A DNA stretch of 64,000 nucleotides from Chryseobacterium sp. Marseille-Q5410. Lineage in GTDB: Bacteria; Bacteroidota; Bacteroidia; Flavobacteriales; Weeksellaceae. A program made the position numbers and the translations under genes. Where the stretch lies: NCBI GenBank assembly GCA_946892665.1, contig CAMPOT010000001.1, positions 1-64,000 on the forward strand, in the 5' to 3' direction. The notes beneath the pieces were generated by a model. It searched no databases and was not told the origin of the DNA. It worked only from the letters and a program-made list of their open reading frames with translations. Shown here piece by piece: positions 5,241 to 44,714 of the stretch (position 1 is the stretch's first letter; the number at the start of each line of letters is the position of its first letter).

Positions 5241-6107
5241 TTAGTGAAATTCTGCGAAAGACTGCTGAATTGACATTGCAATTTCGTCAATTTTGAAAGT
5301 AAGTCCGTCGATCTTAGAAGTAAAATAGTTATAAAGAATAATCGCAACAGCAGAAGTACCAATACCTAACGCAGTATTTACAAGCGCTTCAGAGATACCG
5401 ATTGATAATGCTGCAGAATCCGGAGTACCACCACCTGCACCTAACGCACTAAATGCCTTGATCATCCCGATTACCGTACCCAATAGTGCTACTAGCGTTG
5501 CTACAGTACCAAGCGTAGAAAGAATCATCATGTTTTTCTCTAACATTGGCATTTCTAGAGTGGTAGCTTCTTCAATAGATTTGTTAAGCGCTACCATTTT
5601 TTGTTCTTTGTTCATTGAATTATCATGAGCCAAAGCTTTGTAGGTAGTTAAACCTTCTTTTACTACGTTACCTACAGAACCTTCTTGTCTGTCGCACTCT
5701 TCTAAAGCTTCATCTACCTTGTTTTGGTTAAGCAATCTTCTTACATTTAAAACAAAGTTGTCAACATTTCCTTTACCAGCTGCTTTTCTAAGAACTAATG
5801 CACGCTCGATAGAGAACACGATTACGATAATCATGAAAGAAATTAGAATAGGAACGATAACTCCACCCATATATATAATCCCCATAAATCCGCTTGGATG
5901 TAATTCTTTAGATTCTAAATCAGAGAAAGCAACCGAAGAAAGCCCATTTAACCTTGGATCAGCCTTAAAGTTTCCTGGATTACCTAAAACAAATAAATAA
6001 ATACAAATTCCTATAGCGATAAGAATAGGAATAATTAACGCAGGATTTAATCCCCCTAACTTTTTAGCAACTACTTGCTCCTCGTTGTTTGAAACATTCA
6101 TTTCCAT
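5241..6107 (-). CDS. exbB: MotA/TolQ/ExbB proton-channel protein
   Basis: The 288-residue inner-membrane protein is the channel subunit of the Ton motor. It has an N-terminal membrane helix at about 20-42 (LIIPILIAIGICIYLFVLG) and a second near residue 78-100. A cytoplasmic region with helical segments follows. The conserved ExbB/TolQ core is at about 195-265, with LSTLGTVATLVALLGTVIGM and the following GISEALVNTALG. It is the first gene of the exbB-exbD-exbD-tonB operon. ATG at 6101 is an alternative start two codons in. The 259 bases upstream contain two TTAACAT half-sites but no clean promoter consensus. Confidence 0.92.
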   Translation of the reverse strand: MEMNVSNNEEQVVAKKLGGLNPALIIPILIAIGICIYLFVLGNPGNFKADPRLNGLSSVAFSDLESKELHPSGFMGIIYMGGVIVPILISFMIIVIVFSIERALVLRKAAGKGNVDNFVLNVRRLLNQNKVDEALEECDRQEGSVGNVVKEGLTTYKALAHDNSMNKEQKMVALNKSIEEATTLEMPMLEKNMMILSTLGTVATLVALLGTVIGMIKAFSALGAGGGTPDSAALSIGISEALVNTALGIGTSAVAIILYNYFTSKIDGLTFKIDEIAMSIQQSFAEFH

Positions 6108-6219
6108 ACTAAACTAAATTATAATTGTTATTTTTTTTAAAATTTTTCGAGTGTAAAATAAAGTCAAAATATTTAATAATGCAAGAATTTATAGTCTTTA
6201 AAATTATTTTTTTTGTAGG

Positions 6220-6236
6220 TTAACATTCATTAACAT
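6220..6236. promoter_or_regulatory. Two direct TTAACAT half-sites upstream of exbB
   Basis: TTAACAT occurs at 6220-6226 and again at 6230-6236, start-to-start 10 bases, about one DNA turn. The same heptamer is the arm of the inverted repeat in both susC promoters of this window. It lies 113-129 bases upstream of the exbB start. A role as a binding site is inference; the heptamer is AT-rich and could recur by chance. Confidence 0.3.
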
Positions 6237-26605: not shown

Positions 26606-28525
26606 TTAGTTAGAAACCAAACGAACAACTCGGTACCCTTTGTTGACATACGCACCGGATTTGGTTTTCTCAAACTCGAATTTCGTAGCAAGTTGGGTCT
26701 GTACTTTATTCATTTGTTTGAAAATTTCTCCTTTTTTATTCTCGCGGCTCAACATATCATTTACAACATCAAATCCGATTACCGAATATTTAGAAGGAGT
26801 TTTGCAATATTTTTCTTTATACGCAGCCAAAATTTCTTTCTCGTAATCTCCTTCGGTATTGATTTTTCGATCCATTAGATATACTAAATTTACTTGGCTT
26901 AGCGCATCTTGTTTTTTCTCAAAAATCGGAGAATAGAACATACTGAAAGCTTTGATTCCGTGGGTTTCTTCCCCCAAAGCGATCATTCTATTAGCAAAAG
27001 CGTCGGCTACAGCATCCTTGTCATTCGCTAAAATAGCAATGATGGGAGCAGATTGCCCAGTCATCATATTCTTATCTACCTGAATATCAGCAGCTGAATT
27101 AACGATAATGACATTTGGGTTTCTCAATTCTTTTTCAAGATTTGTTTTCAGATATTTTGCTTTGGTTTGATCTTCATCCGCAAGAATATAGATTTTCTGG
27201 TCAGAATATACATCCTTCGTTTCCTTCACGATGCGATCTGCATACACCATCTCATTGGTTTCGATGAGGATCAGATTGCTATAGTTATATAAATCTTCAG
27301 AATTGGCGAAAGGAGCAACCACCGGAATTTTCGTTGCTTTCACATAATCCAAAACCTGCAAAACACTGGATTTGAAAAACGGCCCAATAATTAGATCGGT
27401 GTTATCAGCGTTGATTTGTGTTAAGGAATTTTTGAAACTCTGTTCGTTTCCTGCATCAATAACCTTAACGTCCAGTTGTTGACCTTTTTGTACGTTTCTT
27501 TCAATAGCGAGTTTTGCTCCCGAAAGGAAATCGAGTGCGAGGGTTCTGTACTTAGAGTCACCAGTATCAAAACCGAAAGGCAACATCAATACGACATTCA
27601 AAGCGTCACCTGATTTCTTTACATATCCTTCGTCTAATTTTTTAATTTTTAAAACCATTCCGGTTTTAAGACCTTGGGATAAACTGGGATTTAAGTTAAG
27701 CAGCTGATCCAAAGAGATTCCAAATTTATTTAAAATCCCGAAAACGGTATCACCTGACTGAACGGTGTACGTTACATAATCATCTGCTGTAGATACGCTG
27801 GTATAAGAATTTGCAAGTTTACTTTCCTGCACTTTCTCCTCAACTGCTGTTTCAGTAACTGTTGACGAAATTGCGTTTCCTTTAATTTTAATAACTTCTC
27901 CCGGACGCAAACCTTTGTCTTCTAATCCCGGATTGAGGGCGAACAATTCCTTTTGTGTTAGGTTAAACTTTCGGGTCAGTTTATAATAATTGTCTTTTTC
28001 TTCAATAGTGTAAAGATCTTCGCTGGTAGCTTTTTCCTCTTTTTTCACCTCTTCTGGTGCAGGGAGTGTCTTTACATCTTCCGGTTTTACAGCAACAGCT
28101 TGCCCCGCTCCAAATTTCTTGATATTCTCCAATGGCAACACTACTTCATCCCCTATTTTCATATGACTGTCCAATTCAGGATTCAATCTTCTAAGTTCTG
28201 ACTCGCTGATTTGATATTGCTTGGTGATGCCATAAATAGTTTGCTTCGGTTGCAACACTATTTTTCCCAATTGGGCAGGAGTCGCAGTAGAATTCGCCGG
28301 TACTGTTTTGGTTTGTGCGCCGGTTTTACCCACTACCAAAACCTCCCCTAATGCTAGTTTGCCATCTTTCACCTTTGGATTTTTTTGGTACAATTCGTCC
28401 AAACTCAATCCATATTTTTTGGAAATATTGTAAGGAGTATCACCTTTTACGACTGTATGTGTCTGGGCAGATAAACCAGAAAAAGCGATTAAACTTGAAA
28501 TTATGAATGATTTTTTGAACATCAT
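26606..28525 (-). CDS. LysM protein with a C-terminal periplasmic-binding-like domain
   Basis: The 639-residue exported protein has a signal peptide ending SAQ and four LysM-type modules, which bind peptidoglycan. They start near residues 22 (HTVVKGDTPYNISKKYG), 88 (LQPKQTIYGITKQYQ), 172 (YTIEEKDNYYKLTRKFN) and 250 (YTVQSGDTVFGILNKFG). From about 310 a periplasmic-binding-protein-like domain follows (LNVVLMLPFGFDTG, then DLIIGPFFKSSVLQVLDYV). A PBP-like domain joined to wall-binding modules recalls the layout of LpoA-type regulators of penicillin-binding proteins, but that role is inference. ATG 28522 is an alternative start. A TATTTTTG -7 box lies upstream at 28543-28550. Confidence 0.85.
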   Translation of the reverse strand: MMFKKSFIISSLIAFSGLSAQTHTVVKGDTPYNISKKYGLSLDELYQKNPKVKDGKLALGEVLVVGKTGAQTKTVPANSTATPAQLGKIVLQPKQTIYGITKQYQISESELRRLNPELDSHMKIGDEVVLPLENIKKFGAGQAVAVKPEDVKTLPAPEEVKKEEKATSEDLYTIEEKDNYYKLTRKFNLTQKELFALNPGLEDKGLRPGEVIKIKGNAISSTVTETAVEEKVQESKLANSYTSVSTADDYVTYTVQSGDTVFGILNKFGISLDQLLNLNPSLSQGLKTGMVLKIKKLDEGYVKKSGDALNVVLMLPFGFDTGDSKYRTLALDFLSGAKLAIERNVQKGQQLDVKVIDAGNEQSFKNSLTQINADNTDLIIGPFFKSSVLQVLDYVKATKIPVVAPFANSEDLYNYSNLILIETNEMVYADRIVKETKDVYSDQKIYILADEDQTKAKYLKTNLEKELRNPNVIIVNSAADIQVDKNMMTGQSAPIIAILANDKDAVADAFANRMIALGEETHGIKAFSMFYSPIFEKKQDALSQVNLVYLMDRKINTEGDYEKEILAAYKEKYCKTPSKYSVIGFDVVNDMLSRENKKGEIFKQMNKVQTQLATKFEFEKTKSGAYVNKGYRVVRLVSN

Positions 28526-32170: not shown

Positions 32171-33598
32171 TTAGTTATAGCCGGGATTTTGGACTACATT
32201 AGGATTTGTTTGCATTTCCGAAATAGGAATTGGCCAAACAAATTTATAATTGTCTGCTTCAGCGACAAAAGTATTGTTGTTTTGTCCTGTTTTATCAACC
32301 GGTTTATGATTTCTCTTAAGGTCAGTCAATCGGTGACCTTCCAAGAAAAATTCAAATCCTTTTTGTCTTAAGATTTCGTCGAGCAATGCTTGCCCTGAAG
32401 TTGCAGGAATTAAGTAACCGGTATCTCTATAGGTTTTAACCCAAGCTTGAAGACCGGAAGCAGCAGCAGCAGGATTCTGGTAATAGTTTGCTTCCGCCAA
32501 AATAAATACCGCTTCTGTTTTCCTGAAAAGCACCACGTCTTTTGCCGCAGAAGTATATTTTCTAACGTCAATTGGTTTCGGATTATCCCCTAAATTGTTC
32601 ACATAAGCATTAGAAGTGTACCATGTAGTTCTTCTAATATCAGTGGATGGAAACGTTTCCCAGAAACTTCTTCTCATCCAGTTTTGTTTATAAGTTCCAG
32701 CTGACGACCATGTTCCTGATAAAGCATCATTTGAACCAAGGTTAACAGTTGAAGATTCATAAATTTGAAACAACGTTTCGTTGACATCACTATCACCTAA
32801 AAAATAGGAGCCCACTTTATATCTTTCTAGCAGAGGGGTGGAACCTTCTAACGTTTTATTCGCAAATTCGACTGCTTTTGGATAGTTCTTCATATAAAGA
32901 TATGTCCGTGCTGTCAATAGATTTGCGGCTTCAATATTAAATTTGTTTTTACTGGTACTATAATCTGGACTAAGATTCGCGTTCGCGTAATTCAAATCAG
33001 CAAGTATCCCGTTATAAACCTCACTTACAGTAGATCTAGGCAACCTTTGTTCAATATCAAAGGTAGTAGGATACGGAACCCCAAGCGATTGATCTCCTTC
33101 GCCATAGTTTGGTGCAAAATATTGCATCAAAGTCAAGTAGGAATATGCTCTTACGGCATGCGCATGAGCAAACAAATCAGTTGTTGGTGCACCACCAGCA
33201 TCACCTTCAGGAATTTTCCCTTCATATTCTAAGATGAAATTGGCATTTGCTATGATATTATAAAGACTGTTCCACAGACCATCACTTACGCCATCACTTG
33301 GGCTAATGTGTCCCCATCCATTTGTTTGGGTAAATCTTCCGGAATTCACCATTCCCACAAAGGCGAGGTCACCGGTAAGTTCTTGATACGTTTGATGATT
33401 GGCACCAAAAGCCGACGCGGAATTCATTGTGGCATAAAGACCATTAACCGCAACTTCTAAATCCGCTTTAGTTTTTAGTGATCCGCTTGGAGAAATGACG
33501 GTAGAGCTTGGTGGTAGATCGGTAAGGAAACTATCAGTACAAGAAGCGACTCCTAGTGTTGTGAAAACGGTTGCTATAAGTATATTTTTAAATTTCAT
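32171..33598 (-). CDS. SusD/RagB-family nutrient-binding lipoprotein, first pair
   Basis: SusD proteins are surface lipoproteins that cap a SusC channel and bind glycans or peptides. The 475-residue protein has lipobox VASC (Cys near residue 20). It shows the SusD TPR core near residue 115 (NIIANANFILEYEGK, then AHAVRAYSYLTLMQYF). The C-terminal signature is RQKGFEFFLEGHRLTDLKRN and then WPIPISEMQTNPNVVQNPGYN. The ligand cannot be read. It follows the paired susC after 16 bases and ends at a strong terminator. No glycosidase or sulfatase gene sits beside the pair, so this is not a typical polysaccharide-utilisation locus. Confidence 0.94.
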   Translation of the reverse strand: MKFKNILIATVFTTLGVASCTDSFLTDLPPSSTVISPSGSLKTKADLEVAVNGLYATMNSASAFGANHQTYQELTGDLAFVGMVNSGRFTQTNGWGHISPSDGVSDGLWNSLYNIIANANFILEYEGKIPEGDAGGAPTTDLFAHAHAVRAYSYLTLMQYFAPNYGEGDQSLGVPYPTTFDIEQRLPRSTVSEVYNGILADLNYANANLSPDYSTSKNKFNIEAANLLTARTYLYMKNYPKAVEFANKTLEGSTPLLERYKVGSYFLGDSDVNETLFQIYESSTVNLGSNDALSGTWSSAGTYKQNWMRRSFWETFPSTDIRRTTWYTSNAYVNNLGDNPKPIDVRKYTSAAKDVVLFRKTEAVFILAEANYYQNPAAAASGLQAWVKTYRDTGYLIPATSGQALLDEILRQKGFEFFLEGHRLTDLKRNHKPVDKTGQNNNTFVAEADNYKFVWPIPISEMQTNPNVVQNPGYN

Positions 33599-33614: not shown

Positions 33615-36461
33615 TTAAAAATCAATTGTAACTCCAAATAGATATTGTTTCATATTTGGCTGTGTTTGATCGTACACACCCATTCCACCGATTGTACCCA
33701 TAGTGTTGGAGTTGGCTTCCGGATCGAATGGCAAGTTTTTATCAAACGCATAAGTCCAGAGATTTACTCCTCTTAGATATAGATAAATGCCTTTAGGACC
33801 AAATTCTCCCAAAATGTTTTTAGGAATTCTGTACCCTAATTCTAAACTTTTCAACCTCACATGATCACCTTTGAACAGGTATCTGGTTGAATGCAGACGA
33901 GTTGCGGTATTACCAGGCAAAAATTTCGGACGGTCTGAGTTCGGATTATCTACAGTCCAGCTATTTAAAGCATCTGCGAACTGAACACCTTGGATATCTT
34001 GACCATCATTGTTGAAATAACGTTGCCATAAATCATATACGTAGTAATCGCCCATATAGGTGAATAGGAACGAAAGCGAAAGATTTTTATAATTGAAATT
34101 ATTTGTTAAACCTGCTGTATGCGTAGGCAAAGCATTTTTACCGGTCATCATTCTTAGCGCTTTTGAAGTATCATTCGTTGTTTCAGTGAGTGCTTCGTTG
34201 GTATACCACAGCGCATCACCATTGGATTTATCCACTCCCGCGTAAGCATATAAATACCATTCGGTTGGGTTATGATCTACAAGAAAACGCTTAGCAAAAG
34301 TTCGGTCGACAAATGGGCTCAATAATTTTGTAACCTTAGAATCATTATAAGAATAATTTCCAGTTACTGTCCATTTGAATTCTTCTCTACTAACGATATC
34401 TGCACTAAAGCTTGTTTCAACTCCTGATGATACAGATGAAACTGCATTTCCTAATAAGTAAGGGAATCCAGTAGATCCAGGGTTTGGAACATCGCTGGTT
34501 AACTGATCCACAACATCGTTTTTGTACCAATCTACAGAAACTCGATATCTATTTTTATAAAAACCTAAATCGATACCGATGTTTAATTTTTTCGAAGTTT
34601 CCCATCCTAAATCAGGGTTACCCGGCGCAATCGAATTCCCAGAAGCTTCTAAGTAAGAATTTGGAGTAAGTAGGTTGTATTTTCTATAGAGAAAATCATC
34701 TCCCCCTGTATTTCCCACTTCACCATAACTAGCACGAACCTGGAAGTTCTGGAAAGTATCTGCAATATTACCAAGGTTATGTACATTCACATTTGCTCCT
34801 GCGGCCCAGAAATTACCATATTTTACATTATCCCCGAAGTGCGAAAATCCATCTCGTCTGAAAGATCCGGTAATATTAAAGTAATTTTTGAAGCCGTAAG
34901 AAGCTCTAGCGATATACCCTATTAAGTTCCATTCGGTATTATCAGAAGAACCATCAGCAATATTTGCTGCATTAGCCAAAGTTACAAGATCCCAGTGACC
35001 GGATAAATAACCCTGACGGAGTACAAAGGTGTTTTTCGAAACTTTGTTTGTTGCTTCGGCACCTACCGATAAATTAAGGTCATGATCTTCATTCTCACCT
35101 AACTTCACATTATAATGCACCAAATTTGACCAGTTCCAAGTAGAGTAGCTGTAATCTGTTTTGATACCATTTCCATTTCCTAATTCATCTCCAGCATTTA
35201 CCCCATCAGCAAAATCTGGATTCTGCCACTCGAATTCATCATAGTAATTATAATCAATCCCAATATTGGAAGAGAATCTAAAGTTTTTTGCAAAGTTGTA
35301 ATCAACCCCTAATGAAGACAAAATTTTGGTGAATGTCGATTTTCTCTTATTAACATCCTGAATTCCCACCAAGTTGAAATCAGTACCTATTCCTGAAATT
35401 AAATTTAGGTTATAGGAACCGTCTTCATTATAAATCGGTTGAGTTCCGTTAATAAATCTTGACCCTAAGATTGGGTTTTGAAAATATCCATAATCCAAAG
35501 GTCCTTTTTGATTTGCTCTGGATAACATGTTGGACATTTGCACGATCAATTTGTCGGAAACTTTCCAAGTACCCTTTAATGAGGCATTTAGTCTGTTATA
35601 AGAAGCGTCTCTACTGATCCCTTCTTGATCGGTATAACCTAATGAGGCATAAATATTAGCAAATTCGGTACCTCCGGAATAGTTGATGGTGTTTCTACTA
35701 AAAATTGGAGATGCATTTCTGGTCGCTTCCTGCCAATTATCGTTGGTTTTACCATCCCAGTTATAATATGAAATTGCATTAGCGGTAGCATCTGCCTCGC
35801 TTTGCCCTTGGTTCATATACCCCATGGTAAGTAATTTCACCATTCCCGGCCCATCAAGCAAATCATATTTTTCATACGCTTCTGTACCGGCACCGATTTC
35901 TGAGTTTAAACTAAATTTGCCCCCTTTTTTTCCTGATTTTGTTTTAATCACGATAACACCTGCAGCCCCTCTGGAACCGTAAAGTGAAGTAGTAACCCCA
36001 TCTTTCAGAACCTCAATCGATTCAATATCTGCAGGGTTAATCATCGCTAAAGCATTTGAGGTAGTTGCAACACCTGCAGCATCACCCGTTAGAACCGGCA
36101 CCCCATCTACGATGTAAAGCGGCTGGGTATTTCCTGACAAACTGCTGATACCTCTGATCAAAACCCTAGCGTTGGAACCTGGCTGACCACTGTTAGAGTT
36201 AATTACAACCCCAGAAGCTTGACCTGCAATCGCTAAATCTAAGGACACTGCGTTTGGCTTTTCTAAAACTTTTGATGAAATTAAAGAATACGAACCAACT
36301 TTTTGTTCTTGGGATTCTTTAATACCGTAAGACCCTAAAACTACCACCTCTTCAATATCCTGTGTTTTGGTAGCCGTGTCCTTTTTTGCCTTCTGAGCCA
36401 TGAGCGTATGCCCGGCAAAGAACAATACACCAACACTTAAAACTCGTAATTTTACATTCAT
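33615..36461 (-). CDS. SusC/RagA-family TonB-linked outer-membrane protein, first pair
   Basis: The 948-residue transporter imports nutrients across the outer membrane using TonB energy. A signal peptide (GVLFFAGHTLMAQ) is followed almost at once by a Ton-box-like stretch (DIEEVVVLGSYG) and the plug domain (RVLIRGISSLSGNTQPLYIV near 105). The barrel of about 700 residues ends with the aromatic strand KQYLFGVTIDF. The N-terminal carboxypeptidase-regulatory domain found in many SusC proteins is absent. Its promoter carries the inverted repeat shared with the other susC gene. Confidence 0.95.
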   Translation of the reverse strand: MNVKLRVLSVGVLFFAGHTLMAQKAKKDTATKTQDIEEVVVLGSYGIKESQEQKVGSYSLISSKVLEKPNAVSLDLAIAGQASGVVINSNSGQPGSNARVLIRGISSLSGNTQPLYIVDGVPVLTGDAAGVATTSNALAMINPADIESIEVLKDGVTTSLYGSRGAAGVIVIKTKSGKKGGKFSLNSEIGAGTEAYEKYDLLDGPGMVKLLTMGYMNQGQSEADATANAISYYNWDGKTNDNWQEATRNASPIFSRNTINYSGGTEFANIYASLGYTDQEGISRDASYNRLNASLKGTWKVSDKLIVQMSNMLSRANQKGPLDYGYFQNPILGSRFINGTQPIYNEDGSYNLNLISGIGTDFNLVGIQDVNKRKSTFTKILSSLGVDYNFAKNFRFSSNIGIDYNYYDEFEWQNPDFADGVNAGDELGNGNGIKTDYSYSTWNWSNLVHYNVKLGENEDHDLNLSVGAEATNKVSKNTFVLRQGYLSGHWDLVTLANAANIADGSSDNTEWNLIGYIARASYGFKNYFNITGSFRRDGFSHFGDNVKYGNFWAAGANVNVHNLGNIADTFQNFQVRASYGEVGNTGGDDFLYRKYNLLTPNSYLEASGNSIAPGNPDLGWETSKKLNIGIDLGFYKNRYRVSVDWYKNDVVDQLTSDVPNPGSTGFPYLLGNAVSSVSSGVETSFSADIVSREEFKWTVTGNYSYNDSKVTKLLSPFVDRTFAKRFLVDHNPTEWYLYAYAGVDKSNGDALWYTNEALTETTNDTSKALRMMTGKNALPTHTAGLTNNFNYKNLSLSFLFTYMGDYYVYDLWQRYFNNDGQDIQGVQFADALNSWTVDNPNSDRPKFLPGNTATRLHSTRYLFKGDHVRLKSLELGYRIPKNILGEFGPKGIYLYLRGVNLWTYAFDKNLPFDPEANSNTMGTIGGMGVYDQTQPNMKQYLFGVTIDF

Positions 36462-36488
36462 ATTAACACATTTTAATATTTAATGGAA

Positions 36489-36520
36489 CAAATATGTTAA
36501 TTTATTTTAACATATACAAA
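36489..36520 (-). promoter_or_regulatory. Promoter and inverted repeat of the first susC
   Basis: On the minus strand TTTG (plus 36517-36520) is followed after 20 bases by CATATTTG (plus 36489-36496), close to the -33/-7 consensus. Within it lies ATGTTAA-N6-TTAACAT at 36494-36513. The same arrangement, with identical spacings including the 32 bases to the start codon, occurs at the second susC. Confidence 0.65.
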
Positions 36521-36656
36521 TTAAAATTTCCATATTCTTAAGTTATTTTTATTTTTGTTAACATAATAGCGAAAAATAGGTGTTTTATTTTCAGAAGTAG
36601 TAGGCATACAGGGAAGGTTGGTGAAAATTACCTAATGTGCCCACCTGTAATAAAAT

Positions 36657-36686
36657 GATAAAGCCACCCTTACGGATGGCTTTATC
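36657..36686 (-). terminator. Terminator below the decayed susD
   Basis: GATAAAGCCACCC and GGATGGCTTTATC pair over 13 bases with one wobble on the minus strand, around a 4-base loop. A T-rich stretch follows. It probably once ended the operon of the decayed susD. Confidence 0.8.
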
Positions 36687-36716
36687 GGATGAAAAATCAT
36701 TTAATATTTATTTTTA

Positions 36717-36978
36717 TTAATATCCAGAAAAATCTGCAATATGTTTATAAGGTTTTGCAAAGAAGTTCACTAATTCATAGGAACTGAAAGTTCTGAGGAA
36801 CAAAGCCTGCCTGATGTAATCATTACCTTCAGCCTGCGAAATCACTCCACTCGCAATTGTTTTGGTAACCCCTTCAATAATCAGATTTGCACGGATTACC
36901 AGTCTTTAGGTGTCTACCCAGCAATATTCGGTGTTCAGTGCACCTGCAGGATCACATGTCGTATAGGTAATGGCATAA
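36717..36978 (-). pseudogene. Remnant of a third susD gene
   Basis: One minus-strand frame reads from about 36978 to a TAA at 36717-36719. It contains RLVIRANLIIEGV, then ISQAEGNDYIRQALFLRTF and YELVNFFAKPYKH, which is the SusD N-terminal TPR core. Just before it, EYCWVDT is followed by TAA at 36906-36908, where SusD proteins usually have Tyr (WVDTYR), so a Tyr codon has become a stop. Both ends of the gene are missing. It is not a fragment of either intact SusD here, whose matching segments differ. It is flanked by two terminators. Confidence 0.75.
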
Positions 36979-37007
36979 CAAAAAAAAGGAGCAGAATAAA
37001 TCTGCTC
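36979..37007 (-). terminator. Terminator of the second susC-susD pair
   Basis: GAGCAGA and TCTGCTC form a perfect 7-bp stem with loop ATAAA (36989-37007). On the minus strand it is followed by C and a run of eight T. It begins 26 bases after the susD stop codon. Confidence 0.82.
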
Positions 37008-37032
37008 GTCATTAGTAAAACCTGTATTCTGA

Positions 37033-38529
37033 TTATTTCAGCTTAGGGTTATTGTTGATTTCCGCCTGTGGAATATCCATGGACAGTCTGTCGTCATCAT
37101 AACTGAAAGTCTGGCCTGCAAAGAACAGGTGGTTAGGCCCTCTCTTGATAGTAGCCTTGTTTCTCTTCATTGCCAGGTAACTCTTACCTTCGCCCCAAAG
37201 TTCAATCTTGGTTTGCAGATAGATTTCATTAAGTAATGCAGCACCTGACAAACCATCGATATAGCTTACATTATTCAGTCTATCAGTTAAGAAGTTCTTA
37301 AGAATGTCTTTCGCCTGAGCTTCATTTCCTGATTTTGCTAAAGTTTCAGCAGCTAACAGATGGAATTCGTCTGCGCGCATAAATAAGTAATCTGTAGTTA
37401 TAATTCTTTGCCCTCCGATTGTTCTTCCCGGAGCATAGAACTTATTCGCAGGAACAGAAGGATAATCAAATGCTCCAGGTGCGTTTGCAGGTGCCATTGT
37501 GAAACCGTCTGCAGTCTCGTTAATAGATACAAACTGATTCTTTCTGATATCATCAGTTCTGATCGCGTTATACAAATCAAGGTCAATTGATTTCGCGTCT
37601 CCTACCCAAGAGTAAGAATAAGTAAAGATATCTGCCTGCCCCCACCAGCTGATGAGATCAAGATCATTTGCCTCTGTAAGGTCGAAGCCCCACATCCAGC
37701 TGTTAGTCTTAAGGTCGTTGAAACCACCTCCGGATCCGGTAACTTCATCAAAAACGGTTTCTTCTTTGGTCGTTTTAGGGAACTTTGCTATAATCTCCTG
37801 AGACAATGTAGCTGCGTTTGCATTCTCACCCATTGCTGCATAAGTGTAAGCCAGTAATCCTTTAGCAACATCCTGGTTGATTACCCCTTTATTTGCACGG
37901 GAGAACCCTTGTAATAAGCTAACTGCATCAGTAAGATCTTTTACAATCTGAGCATAAATTTCAGACTGTTTTGCTTTTGGCTGAGCCTGTACTCCTGCAT
38001 CAATATACAAAGGAATAGCCGGTGCAGCTGGATCATATTTCGTAGTGAAATATTGGGTAAGATAAAAATAGGCATAAGCACGCATAGCTTTCGCCTGCCC
38101 CATTGCAGCTTTATCCGCCGCAGATGCAGGAACTGCATCATTACCGCCTAACCCGGCAATTACGTCATTTGCAGCATATGCAATCCGGTAATAATACCTC
38201 CATGGCTGGTAATTCGCGTTGTTGGTAAAGTCAGTAGTCGCGGTAAGGTTAGCGATATTTCTGTACCATCCGTAAGTTACACCGCTCAGTACCATATCTG
38301 CAGAAAGCATATCGGATACCAAATCGTAACCTTTTTGTCCATAGTCATCGTGACCTGTAGTACCACCAGTACCGGTGTTTACCATCATCAGGTAAAGACC
38401 GTTCAGTTTAGCCTGAGCTGGCGGGTTTGCCAGAGTTTCTGTAGGCTCGCTCTGCAAAAACTCCTCTCTACAGGAAGTTGTGGTTAAAAGCATTCCCATT
38501 AGGGAACTTAATATAAGTATTTTTTTCAT
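37033..38529 (-). CDS. SusD/RagB-family nutrient-binding lipoprotein, second pair
   Basis: The 498-residue lipoprotein has lipobox TTSC (Cys near residue 19). It shows the SusD core near residue 110-160 (YYRIAYAANDVIAGLGG, then GQAKAMRAYAYFYLTQYF) and the C-terminal pattern TKIELWGEGKSYLAMKRN with IPQAEINNNPKLK. It should sit on the outer-membrane surface over the SusC encoded 12 bases upstream. The ligand is unknown. Its base composition is clearly richer in G+C than the first pair: 32 of 60 in 38101-38160 against 22 of 60 in 33001-33060. Confidence 0.94.
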   Translation of the reverse strand: MKKILILSSLMGMLLTTTSCREEFLQSEPTETLANPPAQAKLNGLYLMMVNTGTGGTTGHDDYGQKGYDLVSDMLSADMVLSGVTYGWYRNIANLTATTDFTNNANYQPWRYYYRIAYAANDVIAGLGGNDAVPASAADKAAMGQAKAMRAYAYFYLTQYFTTKYDPAAPAIPLYIDAGVQAQPKAKQSEIYAQIVKDLTDAVSLLQGFSRANKGVINQDVAKGLLAYTYAAMGENANAATLSQEIIAKFPKTTKEETVFDEVTGSGGGFNDLKTNSWMWGFDLTEANDLDLISWWGQADIFTYSYSWVGDAKSIDLDLYNAIRTDDIRKNQFVSINETADGFTMAPANAPGAFDYPSVPANKFYAPGRTIGGQRIITTDYLFMRADEFHLLAAETLAKSGNEAQAKDILKNFLTDRLNNVSYIDGLSGAALLNEIYLQTKIELWGEGKSYLAMKRNKATIKRGPNHLFFAGQTFSYDDDRLSMDIPQAEINNNPKLK

Positions 38530-38541
38530 TTTCAGTAAAAT

Positions 38542-41500
38542 TTAGAAGTTTGTTTTTACACCAAACGTGATGGTAGAAAGTGGTGAATATCTGTAAGTAT
38601 TACTGTTTCCTGTTTCAGAAGTAGTAGGGTTGAAGCCTTTTCTCTTAGTCTGAATCCACAGGTTATCACCTGTTAACGAAACAGTAAGTCCGTTTAATCC
38701 AAGTCCCGCAAAATATTTGTTCGGCATGGTATAAGCCAACCTAACATTATTAAGTACCAGATAGTCAGATTTAGTAAGGAATCTGGTTGACATACTGTTG
38801 TAGTTGGTATCGCCGGCTCTGTTACTTGTTAATCTTGGAACATTGGTAATATCTCCTGGATTCTGCCATCTCTGCATGATATCCTGATGCCAGTTGTTGT
38901 TACCAACTACACTGTTGTGCATTAATGCGCCATAAGCACCATCATATGAATAACCACCGATTCCGTAAAGGAACTGTGCAGATAAAGATATTGCTTTATA
39001 GCCAGCATTCAGTGAAAAAGCACCTCTGAGATCTGGAATTGCAGATTTACCTACATATTTCTGAGTTGCCTGAGTGTAAACCTCGGTAGTTCCTTCTAAA
39101 ATAGTAGCTCCCGGATTCTGTGCCAGGAATTCTGTTAAAGATCCAATCTGCTCACCTCCATCGAACTTACCGTTACCGTTCTTATCGGTATAGCTTACGT
39201 TCCACATTGCAGCACCGGTCTGAGGATTAACCCCTGCCCACTCTCTCATATAGAAATCATAAAGTGAGTGACCTTCTGATCTACCGAATCCTGATTCTGC
39301 AAGATCAATAATTTTTGGAAGACCTGTAGTGGCATCAATCGGCATTCTGGTTAATTTATTTTCTAACCACTCTCCGTTTAGGGAAAGATCTAAATAGAAA
39401 TCTTCTTTATTGATCACGTGACCGGTTAAAGTAAATTCAACACCCTGGTTAACCAAAAGACCGTCGTTTACTTTCATAATTGCGTTACCTGTAGAAGGTG
39501 CAAGTCTGTTATCAAAGATCAGATTATCAGTTGTTTTGTGGTAATAATCTACAGCACCTTCGATGATTCTGTTCTTGAACAGTGTGAATTCCATACCTGC
39601 ATCGAAAGTTTTGGACTTTTCCCAAGTAAGATCTGGATATCCGATTCTGTCAAAAGCTGCGGCTGGAAGACCCATGAAGTTCCCAGGATTATACACGTTG
39701 TATCCTGGGTAATATCCCATATTTTGGTCTGTAGCAGATCTGGAAACAATCGACTGGTCACCTACAGTACCATAGCTAGCTTTTAACTTAAGTTTATTAA
39801 ATACGCTGCTGTTCTGCATGAAGTTTTCTTTATTTACGACCCAACCTGCGCCTACAGAGTAGAACGTATCCCATTTGTCATTTAAGAATCTGGAAGTACC
39901 GTCTCTTCTAACGCTTGCGGAAAGTAAATATTTTCCTGCGTAATCATACATTGCCTGACCGAAATAACTTTCAAGTGCGTAGTTATACATGTAAGAGTAA
40001 GCCGGGTTCTGGTTAATAGCGTTGTTGAATTCGCCACCATCCGGAATTACAAGACCGTATTTAGATGCAGAAAGGTAGTTGTACTTCCAGTCTGTACTTT
40101 CGTGTGCCACAAATGCCTGAACACCATGGTCCCCGAAACGGTTCATATAACGCAACAATTGCAAGAAGTTATGAGAGAATAACTCTGTACGAACTTTATA
40201 CAATGATCCAAACTGCGAAGCTGAACTTCCGTAATATGGGTTACTATAATCGTTTCTGGAGTTATTATAATACTGTCCACCGATTCTCGTTTCGAAACTT
40301 AATTTTTTAGTAATATCGGCCTTCAGGAAGAAGTTTGCATTGATTTCGTGCTTCTTTCTGTTATCCAGGTTATAAGTCGCATCGGCGATAGAGTTGGTTA
40401 AAGCACCAAAACCTCTACCGTTACCGTAATCGTACTGGTTTCCGCCGAAATACTGGTCAGGTACATAACCTCCCTGTGCATTTCTTAAGAATAAAGGATA
40501 GATGGATGGGATATTATCAACAAACCAGAAGATACTTCCACTGTCTTCAGTCTGTCCGTTTCTGTCGGTATCAGAGTAAGCATAACCCATGTTGAATTCT
40601 CCTTTCAACCAGGATTTCGCCTGATGCGTTAGGTTTAATCTACCACTGTAACGCTCGTACTTGGAGTTAATGGTATAACCTTCATCTTTTAGATAACCTA
40701 TACCAGTATAGTAAGTAGTCTTTCCTTCACCACCGCTGATACTGAAGTTCGTCTCAGATCTCATTGAGGTCTGGAAACCGTAATCTCTCCAGTCTTCCGG
40801 GCTGTATTTTCTGGTAACGCCGTCTCTCACCATTTTCGTCGCAGGATCTATCAGCTGTGCAGCATTAGCGTTCCACATATTGTACTGTGGTCTGATCCCT
40901 TGCGTAGAGAACAAACGTGCGTTCGCATAAGCTACAGGATCTGCACTGCCGTTAAATTTACCTTGGTTATAAAGTGCCTCCCAGGAAAGACCGATATACT
41001 GCTCAGGGCTGCGGATTACGTCATAACGTGGAATAAGCGGTGCATTGAAACCAATTCTGGTATCAATGGTTACCACATCTCTTCCAGATTTACCTTTCTT
41101 GGTCTGAATCAATACTACACCATTCGCACCTCTGGAACCGTAAATTGCAGTTGCAGTCGCATCTTTCAGTACAGTCATATTCTCGATGTCATCCGGGTTG
41201 ATTGCCGATACGTTGCCGTTGAAAGGAATTCCGTCAAGTACGTACAAAGGCTCTCTGTTACCACTTACTGAACCGAATCCTCTGATTCTGATAGATGGTT
41301 CGGAACCTGGCTGTCCGGAGGTTGTGATTACTCTTACCCCAGCTGCTTCTCCGGTAAGAGCTTGCGCCACGTTCGATACATTTTTCTTGGAAATGTTTTC
41401 GCTCCCTACTTTAGAAACCGATCCTGTATAATCTTCTTTTTTTACAGCGGTATACCCTACAATTACAACTTCATCAACTTCAGCTACCCTTGTTGAATCC

Positions 41501-41574
41501 GTTTGGGCTAAAGCAATTCCTCCACCTAAAAAGAAGAGAACTCCTGCTCCTAGAACTTTAGTTTTTAAATTCAT
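38542..41574 (-). CDS. SusC/RagA-family TonB-linked outer-membrane protein, second pair
   Basis: The 1010-residue transporter has a signal peptide ending GIALAQ, a Ton-box-like EVDEVVIVGYTA, and a plug domain with IRIRGFGSVSGNREPLYVL near residue 90 and YGSRGANGVVLIQTKKG near 145. A long barrel ends ITFGVKTNF. Like its neighbour it lacks the carboxypeptidase-regulatory domain, and its first 24 residues resemble those of the first SusC. The partner SusD follows after 12 bases. A shared dyad lies in its promoter. Confidence 0.95.
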   Translation of the reverse strand: MNLKTKVLGAGVLFFLGGGIALAQTDSTRVAEVDEVVIVGYTAVKKEDYTGSVSKVGSENISKKNVSNVAQALTGEAAGVRVITTSGQPGSEPSIRIRGFGSVSGNREPLYVLDGIPFNGNVSAINPDDIENMTVLKDATATAIYGSRGANGVVLIQTKKGKSGRDVVTIDTRIGFNAPLIPRYDVIRSPEQYIGLSWEALYNQGKFNGSADPVAYANARLFSTQGIRPQYNMWNANAAQLIDPATKMVRDGVTRKYSPEDWRDYGFQTSMRSETNFSISGGEGKTTYYTGIGYLKDEGYTINSKYERYSGRLNLTHQAKSWLKGEFNMGYAYSDTDRNGQTEDSGSIFWFVDNIPSIYPLFLRNAQGGYVPDQYFGGNQYDYGNGRGFGALTNSIADATYNLDNRKKHEINANFFLKADITKKLSFETRIGGQYYNNSRNDYSNPYYGSSASQFGSLYKVRTELFSHNFLQLLRYMNRFGDHGVQAFVAHESTDWKYNYLSASKYGLVIPDGGEFNNAINQNPAYSYMYNYALESYFGQAMYDYAGKYLLSASVRRDGTSRFLNDKWDTFYSVGAGWVVNKENFMQNSSVFNKLKLKASYGTVGDQSIVSRSATDQNMGYYPGYNVYNPGNFMGLPAAAFDRIGYPDLTWEKSKTFDAGMEFTLFKNRIIEGAVDYYHKTTDNLIFDNRLAPSTGNAIMKVNDGLLVNQGVEFTLTGHVINKEDFYLDLSLNGEWLENKLTRMPIDATTGLPKIIDLAESGFGRSEGHSLYDFYMREWAGVNPQTGAAMWNVSYTDKNGNGKFDGGEQIGSLTEFLAQNPGATILEGTTEVYTQATQKYVGKSAIPDLRGAFSLNAGYKAISLSAQFLYGIGGYSYDGAYGALMHNSVVGNNNWHQDIMQRWQNPGDITNVPRLTSNRAGDTNYNSMSTRFLTKSDYLVLNNVRLAYTMPNKYFAGLGLNGLTVSLTGDNLWIQTKRKGFNPTTSETGNSNTYRYSPLSTITFGVKTNF

Positions 41575-41601
41575 ATTAACACTTTTTTAATATTATCCTC
41601 G

Positions 41602-41633
41602 CAAATATGTTAATTTTAATTAACATTGCCAAA
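41602..41633 (-). promoter_or_regulatory. Promoter and inverted repeat of the second susC
   Basis: On the minus strand TTTG (plus 41630-41633) is followed after 20 bases by CATATTTG (plus 41602-41609). ATGTTAA-N6-TTAACAT lies at 41607-41626, 32 bases before the start codon. The bases between the arms differ from the first copy while the arms are identical. Confidence 0.65.
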
Positions 41634-41811
41634 TAGGTCAGTGCATTCCGAAAAATCATAATATTTCACATTATCAGCCTTTATGTCAAATACTTAACTA
41701 ACATTTAATAAATCTGTCAATTAAGTAAAGTAATGACAATAATACTCCCGAAACTATACAAAATGGATAAATCAACTTTTTTTTAAATTTTAACAGATAT
41801 TGATTTCTTTA

Positions 41812-41858: not shown

Positions 41859-44714
41859 TTATTTAAGTTTCTTCTTCACTGCTACTTCCTCGTAAACTTC
41901 CAGGATGTCGCCAACTTCGATGTCATTGTATCCTTTGATGTTCAATCCACACTCATAACCTTTAGTTACTTCTTTCACATCGTCTTTGAAACGCTTCAAA
42001 CTTTCAAGTTCGCCATCGAATTTCACGATACCGTCACGCAGCAATCGGATTTTCGAGTTTCGGGTCACTTTTCCGCTAAGAACCATACATCCTGCAATTG
42101 TTCCGACTTTAGAAATTTTAAACACTTCACGGATTTCCACGATTCCGATCACCTGTTCCTGAATCTCTGGAGAAAGCATTCCCTCCATCGCTTCTTTTAC
42201 TTCATCGATCGCTTTATAGATGACAGAATAAGTTCTGATTTCGATTTCTTCTTTATCGGCCAATTCTTTTGCATTGGCACCCGCTCTCACATTGAAACCA
42301 ATCATAATCGCATCAGAAGCCGCTGCTAGAAGTACGTCGGATTCGGTAATCTGACCAACTCCTTTGTGAATAATATTGATACTGATCTCTTCTGTTGAAA
42401 GTCTTTGCAACTGATCCGAAAGCGCTTCTACCGAACCATCAACATCCCCTTTCAGGATAATATTAAGTTCTTTGAAATCCCCAAGTGCGATACGTCTTCC
42501 CAATTCATCCAATGTAAGGTGCTTTTTGGTTCTGATCGATTGCTCTCTTTGGAGTTGCTCACGTTTTGTTGCGATGGTTTTCGCTTCTCTTTCATCTGCA
42601 AATACTCTGAATTTGTCACCTGCAGTAGGTGCGCCGTCTAACCCTAAGATTGTAACCGGGATTGAAGGTCCTGCAGATTCCATAGGTTTCCCTCTTTCGT
42701 CCAGCATTGCTTTTACTTTACCGTGATTTTTTCCTGCAAGCACATAATCTCCTACTTTTAAAGTACCGGTTTGGACCAAAAGTGTAGAGACGTAGCCTCT
42801 TCCCTTGTCTAATGAAGCTTCTATAACAACACCTTGTGCGTTTTTATTTGGATTTGCTTTTAGCTCAAGCATTTCTGCCTGCAACAATACTTTTTCGAGT
42901 AACGCATCCATATTGTTACCAAACTTAGCAGAAACCTCCTGCGATTGAACATTTCCTCCCCATTCTTCTACCAAAATATTCATTGCTGATAGTTGCTGAC
43001 GGATGTTGTCCGGGTTAGAGTTGGGTTTATCCACTTTGTTTAAAGCGATAATCATCGGAACTCCAGCAGCCTGTGCGTGAGAAATTGCTTCTTTGGTTTG
43101 CGGCATCACATCATCATCGGCAGCAATTACAATAATTGCGATATCGGTGATTTGTGCTCCACGCGCTCTCATTGCAGTAAACGCTTCGTGACCTGGTGTA
43201 TCAAGGAAGGTAATTCGTTGACCATTTTCCAATTTCACGTTGTAAGCACCAATATGCTGAGTAATACCACCGGATTCACCGGCAATTACGTTGGTTTTTC
43301 TGATATAATCGAGTAAAGATGTTTTACCATGATCTACGTGTCCCATAACGGTAACAATTGGAGCTCTTGGCAACAAATCTTCTTCTTTATCAATATCTTC
43401 TTCAACCGCAGATTCTTCAAGATCCGCATCAGAGAATTCAATTTTGTACCCGAATTCATCCGCTACTAGCAATAATGTATCTGCTTCTAATCGCTGATTC
43501 ATGGTCACCATTACTCCAAGCGAGAAACATGCAGAAATTACTTCTGTAGGGCTCACATTCATTAAACTTGCTAATTCCCCAACAGTAATAAATTCGGTTA
43601 CCTTAAGCGTCCTGTCTGCTGCATCAATCTCTTGCTGAAGCTCATCCTGTTCTCTTCGATAAACTCTTTTTTCTTTTCTATATTTCGCTCCTTTATTTTT
43701 CCCTCCTTTATTGGTGAGTTTTTCTAAAGTTTCTTTAATTTGATTCTTAACCTGCTCATCAGTAAGCTCTACAGGCATGGTAGGCGCTCCTCTTCGACTT
43801 CCACCTTTTCCAGCATTTGCGCCACCTTGGTAACCTCCTCTGTTTCCACCTTGGCCTTGCGGGCGGTTGTTATTACCTCCCTGGCCTTGTGGGCGATTCC
43901 CTTGGTTATTTCCTTGTCCTTGGGTGCTGCTTCCCGGAGTATTCGGTTTTTCGATTCTTTTTCTTTTCTTTTTCGCTGCTGCACTATTGGCTCCGCCTTG
44001 TGGCTTTGGCTTATTAAATTGAGAAAGATCTACCGTTTGTTTTAGAATTTTAACTCCTTCCAGTTTCTGATAAACAGTTTCTATTTTATCGTTTTGTACT
44101 GGCTCTTCGTCAGTTACATTGGTTATTTCTGCAGATTTTTCAACAGCAGGTGCTGGATTTTCAGCTTTTGGGGCAGGAGCTTCCTCCACTTTTGGAGCGG
44201 GCTTTTCTGCTTCTTTTTTTGGCTGTTCTTTTTTAGCAGATTTCGGTCGCTGACCTTCGATCTGTGATAAATCGATTTTATCTAATACCTTAATTTCTTG
44301 TTTTTCAAAAGGTGCAGGAGTTAGGGGAACTTGTGCTTTCGGAGCCGGCTCTTCTTTTGGAGTTGCCTCTGGCTTCACTTCTTCCTGAACCTCAGCTTTT
44401 TTGGGTTCAAGGTCTATTTTACCCAAAACTTTTGTTTCAGGTCTCAGGCTTGCTTTGGCTCTTATTACCTCAGGTTTTGAAGGTTCAATTTCCAGTTTCT
44501 CTTCCGGAACTTTAATCATCACTACCTCATGGGAAGCTTTTCTTTGTTCACCATCTTTGGCGAACTCAGCTTCCAATGCAGAATATGCCGATTCTTCCAA
44601 TTGAGCGTTGGGGTTATTTTCTACCTCAATACCTTTGGATTGTAGAAATTCCACCAATCGTGACATCGAGATATTAAATTCCTTAACCGCTTTGTTTAAT
44701 CTAATTTTGGGCAT
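41859..44714 (-). CDS. infB: Translation initiation factor IF-2
   Basis: IF-2 is the GTPase that places initiator tRNA on the ribosome. The 951-residue protein has an N-terminal helical IF2N motif ([17 protein letters not shown]) and a long acidic/Lys/Pro linker. A Gly-Gln-Asn-rich segment follows near 265-305 ([19 protein letters not shown]), then the G domain: [14 protein letters not shown] near 457, DTPGHEAF near 502 and NKVDKP near 558. Domains II to IV with the fMet-tRNA-binding C-terminus complete it. It is the last gene of the operon with nusA (71-base gap) and rimP. Confidence 0.97.

Follow-up and report, generated by a model that had tools for sequence, protein, structure and literature searches.

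We analysed a 64,000-nucleotide stretch of the 2.69-Mb genome of Chryseobacterium sp. Marseille-Q5410 (contig CAMPOT010000001.1, positions 1 to 64,000; hereafter the window), in which two tandem susC-susD units lie downstream of infB. Each unit begins with a leader of ~75 bp that comprises the promoter, 5' untranslated region (5'UTR), start codon and signal peptide, with the dyad ATGTTAA-N6-TTAACAT at its front. We found that the leader is conserved in the Weeksellaceae and that the mature SusC and SusD encoded behind it are of many distant types, which can differ between close relatives. We think it likely that the locus is an expression site with a real operator in a primary-sigma promoter, a constant leader, exchanged cargo, and a regulator shared with exbB and a gene encoding a DUF47 protein.

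Two susC-susD units with a common leader

The upstream neighbour of the array is infB, encoding IF-2 (41859..44714; this and all features of the array are on the minus strand). Unit 1 consists of susC (38542..41574) and susD (37033..38529), and unit 2 of susC (33615..36461) and susD (32171..33598). Domain scans identified infB and all four genes, with Plug and TonB-dependent barrel domains in each SusC and SusD domains in the product of the next gene. The SusC family model TIGR04056 exceeds its cut-off for both SusCs. Five SusC genes in the window genome are over this cut-off; the leader precedes the two behind infB and is absent from the other three.

A sequence-only reading of the window had claimed that both susC genes are preceded by TTTG-N20-CATATTTG, with the dyad over the spacer and 32 bases from the ATG. 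We confirmed this arrangement on the minus strand. In unit 1, the promoter (41602..41633) has a -33 TTTG, a 20-nt spacer and the -7 box CATATTTG; the dyad, our proposed operator, is at 41607..41626 and the leader, by its match to our leader model (R1, E 3.5e-14), at 41563..41634. The corresponding features of unit 2 are at 36489..36520 (promoter), 36494..36513 (dyad) and 36447..36521 (leader; E 7e-15). The -7 box is 27 nt from the ATG in both. Conservation continues beyond what had been claimed, through the 5'UTR, start codon and signal peptide. The layout of the leader is TTG, TGTTAA-N6-TTAACATATTTG, ~27 nt ending in TGTTAAT, and then ATGAATGTNAAATTA (MNVKL...).

The leaders of the two units are similar and the units are adjacent, which might indicate that one was recently copied from the other, promoter included. 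A recent duplication is extremely unlikely to be the explanation. The two SusCs are only ~30% identical to each other, and the central six bases of the dyad track position and not genome, with TTAAAA in unit 1 of the window and of four other genomes (G012, G020, G170 and G138). The earlier wording, a conserved site "rather than a recent copy", nevertheless oversimplified the matter: although the leader is old and under constraint, some alignment junctions fall within it (see below).

Near the array, at 26606-28525, the window encodes a protein with three LysM stretches and a Peripla_BP_6 match.

Distribution of the leader

Motifs were counted in 36 genomes from the genus to which the window genome belongs and in a family set of 148 Weeksellaceae genomes from 33 genera. 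The background control was the reversed motif in the same genomes, and counts in the window were also compared with 100 shuffles. GTTAA-N6-TTAACATATTTG, with up to one mismatch, was present in all 36 genus genomes, and the reversed motif in only 7, with a single site each. Several sites in a genus genome were in tandem, mostly ~4.8 kb apart; the exceptions, G014 and G173, have one stray one-mismatch site each. Exact matches were found in 70 of the 148 family genomes and none with the reversed control. The leader model, built from sequence alone and applied with strict filters, gave matches at E<=0.1 in 123/148 family genomes. In 103 of the 148, covering 22/33 genera, the match was below E 1e-6, and the 20 weaker genomes may in part be chance matches. 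A longer leader pattern found 75 stretches in a species-level genome collection, from Chryseobacterium, Kaistella, Elizabethkingia, Bergeyella, Cruoricaptor, Soonwooa, Amniculibacterium and Planobacterium, and from metagenome-assembled genomes labelled Bacteroidetes, Flavobacteriales or Flavobacteriia.

Loci picked by SusC protein similarity alone (L027-L055) had the leader in 20 of 29 cases. All 126 distinct TTAACATATTTG sites with enough flanking DNA in the loci sampled are 18-34 nt before the ATG of a gene with a leader-type signal peptide, most of these loci having been chosen by motif. Each of 100 stretches (99 plus the window) contains one to three leader-susC-susD units, and stretch ends may conceal further ones. 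In these stretches the leader is on 146 of 149 SusC open reading frames (ORFs). Two of the exceptions are pieces of split genes, and the third is an artefact of how the start was chosen. Since the stretches were chosen by leader, this fraction gives no estimate for SusCs at large.

Most leader copies in the sampled stretches are at the front of susC-susD units that follow infB. The start of a typed leader-bearing SusC is no more than 900 nt from the end of infB in 74 cases, and in some genomes 1-2 kb lie between. Some leaders are in stretches without infB (e.g., L271-L277). Two loci, L272 and L275, have near-identical leaders before different SusC bodies (T8 and T4 in the typing described below). 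In two relatives, L303 and L325, susC is split into two frames and was left untyped; some units therefore seem to be decaying.

Conservation of the dyad within the promoter

The sequence-only reading had proposed a search for the motif in the genome and in relatives. The exact 20-bp dyad has two matches in the whole genome, both at the susC genes of the window, and it is conserved in relatives. With up to three mismatches, the window has 17 sites compared with a shuffle mean of 10.4 (2/100 shuffles reach 17). With up to two mismatches, however, the whole genome has 41 sites, and the reversed control 38. Because its own genome shows no excess at two mismatches, the case for the dyad rests on the comparison between genomes.

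We compared 145 distinct leaders, of which 128 have both TTAA arms and 108 have GTTAA-N6-TTAAC; the centre of the dyad is A/T only in 133. The promoter boxes are those of sigma-A, ~20 nt apart, with the -33 TTG in 120 leaders and the -7 TTTG in 144. The left-arm TTAA, which is outside both boxes, is found in 132. The -7 box is CAnnTTTG, with C at -12 in 144 leaders. The leader model was built from sequences with C at this position, and 20/20 leaders found by protein alone also have it. In the Bacteroidetes primary-sigma promoter (-33 TTTG/-7 TAnnTTTG), the TTTG boxes and the ~20-nt spacing are the same, but position -12 is a T that is described as nearly invariant for Flavobacterium johnsoniae promoters in passages of PMC6847099. 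Passages of PMC9723704 likewise describe TAnnTTTG motifs, with no palindrome. The C at -12 is part of the right arm of the dyad, and from this we infer that the dyad is an operator that has been preserved at the expense of the promoter consensus.

Conservation of the leader might instead reflect only a strong core promoter combined with a translation start, the dyad being bound by no regulator. The TTTG boxes are the usual ones. A is found at -3, -12 and -13 of the start codon in 107, 107 and 104 of 107 leaders, which fits the translation determinants of F. johnsoniae in the same passages of PMC6847099. No regulator has been found, and exact dyads outside the array are not clearly above control among the matches listed. 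On balance we consider this explanation unlikely. It does not account for a left arm that is kept outside both boxes, or for C in place of a near-invariant T. Position -6 of the start codon is G in 104/107 leaders, where A is reported, in those passages, to favour translation. In addition, the dyad recurs at exbB and DUF47 genes at other distances from the start.

A second dyad, ATATTAA-N6/7-TTAATAT over the start codon, was considered as a hairpin or thermosensor and rejected: the column counts show no compensating changes, and it is broken in several leaders.

The dyad upstream of exbB and DUF47 genes

We found that the dyad also occurs at fixed positions upstream of other genes. The 36 genus genomes contain 91 TGTTAA-N6-TTAACA sites compared with 22 for the reversed control, and most of the 91 are array sites. 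Among the matches listed, 12 of the 28 exact sites outside the array precede exbB or DUF47, as judged by position. Thirty loci were taken from the ~91 sites, and their 14 non-array exact sites are all outside ORFs of at least 90 codons. These precede DUF47 (4), ExbB (3), a FadL-type protein (2) and, in single cases, a lytic-transglycolase domain protein, an NlpC/P60 lipoprotein, YceI, MATE and an acyl-CoA pair (MATE and acyl-CoA ligase being named by reading the sequence alone).

We then took upstream regions by protein, for 30 of 35 exbB loci and 30 of 36 DUF47 loci. At least 11 of 12 arm letters were present upstream of exbB in 24/30 genomes, all 106-111 bp before the ATG, and upstream of the DUF47 gene in 27/30 genomes, 61-67 bp before the ATG. 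Composition shuffles reached 11/12 in 21 of 3000. After thinning to 29 rows, conservation of the DUF47 arms was 0.97 compared with 0.66 outside, and 7/169 alignment windows outside the arms were as high. In the window itself, a copy with one mismatch in 14 arm bases (6217..6236, minus strand), which the earlier reading had not reported, is 110 bp upstream of exbB (5241..6107, minus strand; MotA/TolQ/ExbB proton channel family, PF01618, E 1.7e-27). DUF47 matches Pfam PhoU_div, a family usually linked to phosphate transport.

The same site at fixed positions before orthologous exbB and DUF47 genes supports a shared, putative DNA-binding regulator. With arms that are kept and a centre that varies, a conserved protein-binding site, as first proposed, is still the best reading. 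The further proposal of one regulator for several SusC/SusD systems is not supported for such systems in general: the leader is on only 2/5 SusCs of the window genome, and for that reason we rejected a genome-wide susC regulon.

One other near-dyad, ATGTTAAATTTAATTATCAT at C1:88015 (L004), is in a TTTG...ATTTTTG promoter layout. The gene downstream looks like an outer-membrane receptor, judged from its sequence only.

SusC and SusD bodies behind the leader

The 143 leader-bearing SusC bodies fall into 22 types (50% identity, single linkage). Units 1 and 2 of the window are T5 and T7, respectively. A single clade of all leader-bearing SusCs was rejected (log-likelihood 451 lower; approximately unbiased (AU) test, p 7.7e-66) with a quick tree of 38 rows. 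This second tree and the AU test used 38 of 82 rows, 14 leaderless rows being dropped and one row kept per leader type; in the first tree several leaderless rows had been wrongly cut at the N-terminus, and the AU test came after that tree was known. The T10 body is 44.8% identical over 968 amino acids (aa) to a leaderless SusC from another family of the order, compared with 35% to the nearest leader type. T20, which is behind infB, is 34.7% identical over 998 aa to a leaderless SusC of the window genome (L020), compared with 25% to the closest of the leader types. Among infB-adjacent units, 30 pairs have infB fragments at least 98% identical, and in 11 of these pairs the SusC bodies are less than 45% identical.

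Comparisons between species showed distant SusC/SusD alleles between conserved flanks. G019 and G018 are 96% identical through infB and the leader up to ATGAAT, and then have different susC and susD; 96% identity resumes ~30 and ~85 bp past the stop codon of susD. Homology between unit 2 of the window and G165 begins at the leader edge, from the -33 box, and is 96.1% over 6858 bp, and the DNA just upstream cannot be aligned. With G003, homology of the same unit starts 172 bp further up. Other alignments stop 17 to 39 codons into susC (e.g., L348/L350 and L330/L341), clear identity in L330/L341 extending only to about codon 6.

In 41 long alignments (at least 88%), 12 starts and 29 ends are inside the stretches. 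Two starts and seven ends are no more than 120 bp from the leader edge, and conservation of the leader can by itself lengthen an alignment by up to ~75 bp. Five ends are 531-580 nt further in, and most other starts are downstream of susD or further up. This spread indicates that the leader is one among several places where homology changes. We read the locus as a constant expression site in which SusC/SusD cargo has been exchanged. From the alignment junctions, the exchange was most likely by homologous recombination, partly between leaders and downstream flanks. Natural transformation, described in passages of PMC8459023 for the related Riemerella, is a plausible route.

A pattern of this kind might also arise without exchange, if each species had kept different members of one ancestral array of old tandem paralogues. 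There are one to three units per stretch, some types are common to several genera, and most alignment boundaries are away from the leader, all of which differential loss would allow. We regard it as quite unlikely, because single-unit sister loci have different cargo between 96% identical flanks and leader-bearing bodies are nearer to leaderless SusCs than to one another. Similar body types also occur behind a different constant leader. In three species of one genus (code g25), a common promoter and signal peptide precede bodies nearest to T12 (36%), T1 (63.7% over 955 aa) and T4 (44.9%). Domain scans of two of the g25 SusCs gave a CarboxypepD_reg-type domain that scored close to the Pfam cut-off.

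Twenty genomes have a weak or no leader match or a leader away from infB. Seven of these have a SusC with another N-terminus as one of the first genes behind infB; no SusC was recognised within ~5 kb behind infB in 12, and one contig was too short. At L373, L384 and L389, a different lineage-constant leader is behind infB, likewise with different SusC bodies. These other leaders suggest that the site behind infB predates the MNVKL-type leader.

Discussion

We propose that the dyad is an operator built into a primary-sigma promoter. In most of the Weeksellaceae genera sampled, the constant leader that contains it is at the front of the units of a susC-susD array located downstream of infB. A putative dimeric protein would read the dyad at the array, exbB and DUF47, as conservation of the site suggests. 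The regulator would link expression of any transporter at the locus to ExbB, the energising protein, and to a general signal; since the operator stays constant when the cargo changes, that signal is probably not substrate-specific. At susC, the dyad takes up the spacer and extends into the -7 box, with its centre ~11 nt upstream of the -7 TTTG. A bound protein would thus lie within the promoter, and blocking or MerR-like remodelling of RNA polymerase would be likeliest there. The dyad is further upstream at exbB and at DUF47, where its centre, judged from the consensus, is ~43 nt before a TTTG, and activation is possible at these genes. One protein could repress at susC and activate at DUF47.

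Several observations weigh against this reading. No regulator was identified: none of the six CRP/FNR-like genes of the window genome, considered as autoregulated candidates, carries the dyad (best 9/12). The G-C step of the dyad is asymmetric, with the left G in 110/145 leaders and the right C in 144/145. The 28 exact sites outside the array, among the matches listed, compare with ~20 for the reversed control in the same genomes, which is no clear overall excess. At exbB, 6/30 upstream regions score only 8-10 of 12 arm letters, and much of the upstream region is conserved; in 25 rows the arms score 0.86 and the outside 0.78, with 48/171 outside windows as high. Only 9/41 alignment boundaries are within 120 bp of the leader, and 17 ends are upstream of it. 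Distances over 2701 pairs correlate weakly (0.22 between infB and leader, 0.14 between infB and body, 0.23 between leader and body), and we dropped them as support. Finally, the collections used have one genome per species.

The six CRP/FNR-like proteins are predicted to bind cyclic nucleoside monophosphates (L481-L486), and five of the six have a C-terminal LGI/V-x-x-E-x-LSR-like motif. The carbon-limitation regulator Cur (BT4338) of Bacteroides is CRP-like, and the regulator could be its Weeksellaceae counterpart. The Cur consensus in Bacteroides thetaiotaomicron, wwwTATGTTnTAnAACATAwww in passages of PMC6989115, has the same palindromic half-site letters, ATGTT and AACAT. Its half-sites are 4 bp apart (TATGTT-N4-AACATA), whereas those of the dyad are 10 bp apart (ATGTT-N10-AACAT) and in a different register, and we consider a Cur counterpart very unlikely.

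Our findings resemble other systems in part. The Bacteroides SusC/SusD shufflons are invertible, and site-specific inversion joins a fixed promoter to different cargo. In both cases a fixed promoter can meet different SusC/SusD cargo, but the differences at the infB locus fit homologous exchange. The ragAB locus of Porphyromonas gingivalis is a single SusC/SusD locus with four strongly different alleles, a conserved N-terminal part of RagA that includes the signal peptide, and a surface-protein variant mosaic unrelated to strain phylogeny, according to passages of PMC11817032 and PMC5266723. As at the infB locus, different alleles follow a conserved SusC N-terminus. The variation among ragAB alleles described in those passages is within a single species, and a CarbopepD_reg domain is included in the conserved part. 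In contrast, the infB-linked locus was compared between species and has 22 types across genera, tandem units, and a dyad shared with exbB. Passages of PMC13063519 mention a SusC/SusD module without infB, promoters or module exchange, and those of PMC12596196 contain nothing on the dyad site. Among the titles listed in literature searches, none points to the leader, the infB-linked array or a dyad operator, although such absence is not proof. SusCD allele variation behind a conserved SusC N-terminus was known from ragAB, and the infB-linked locus adds a proposed operator that those titles do not describe.

More tentatively, the leader might have two roles throughout the family: as the operator at which a regulator of TonB-dependent uptake binds, and as a homology anchor for swapping mature SusC-SusD cassettes. 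If so, surface transporters, which are likely also phage receptors and antigens, would be replaced while expression and secretion signals stay, and other Weeksellaceae lineages would do likewise with a leader of their own. At the infB-linked locus, one can study how surface nutrient receptors change in Bacteroidota without rebuilding of regulation, in a family that includes opportunistic and veterinary pathogens. A candidate operator common to SusC arrays, ExbB and a PhoU-like gene would allow a direct search for a global regulator of TonB-dependent uptake in the Weeksellaceae.

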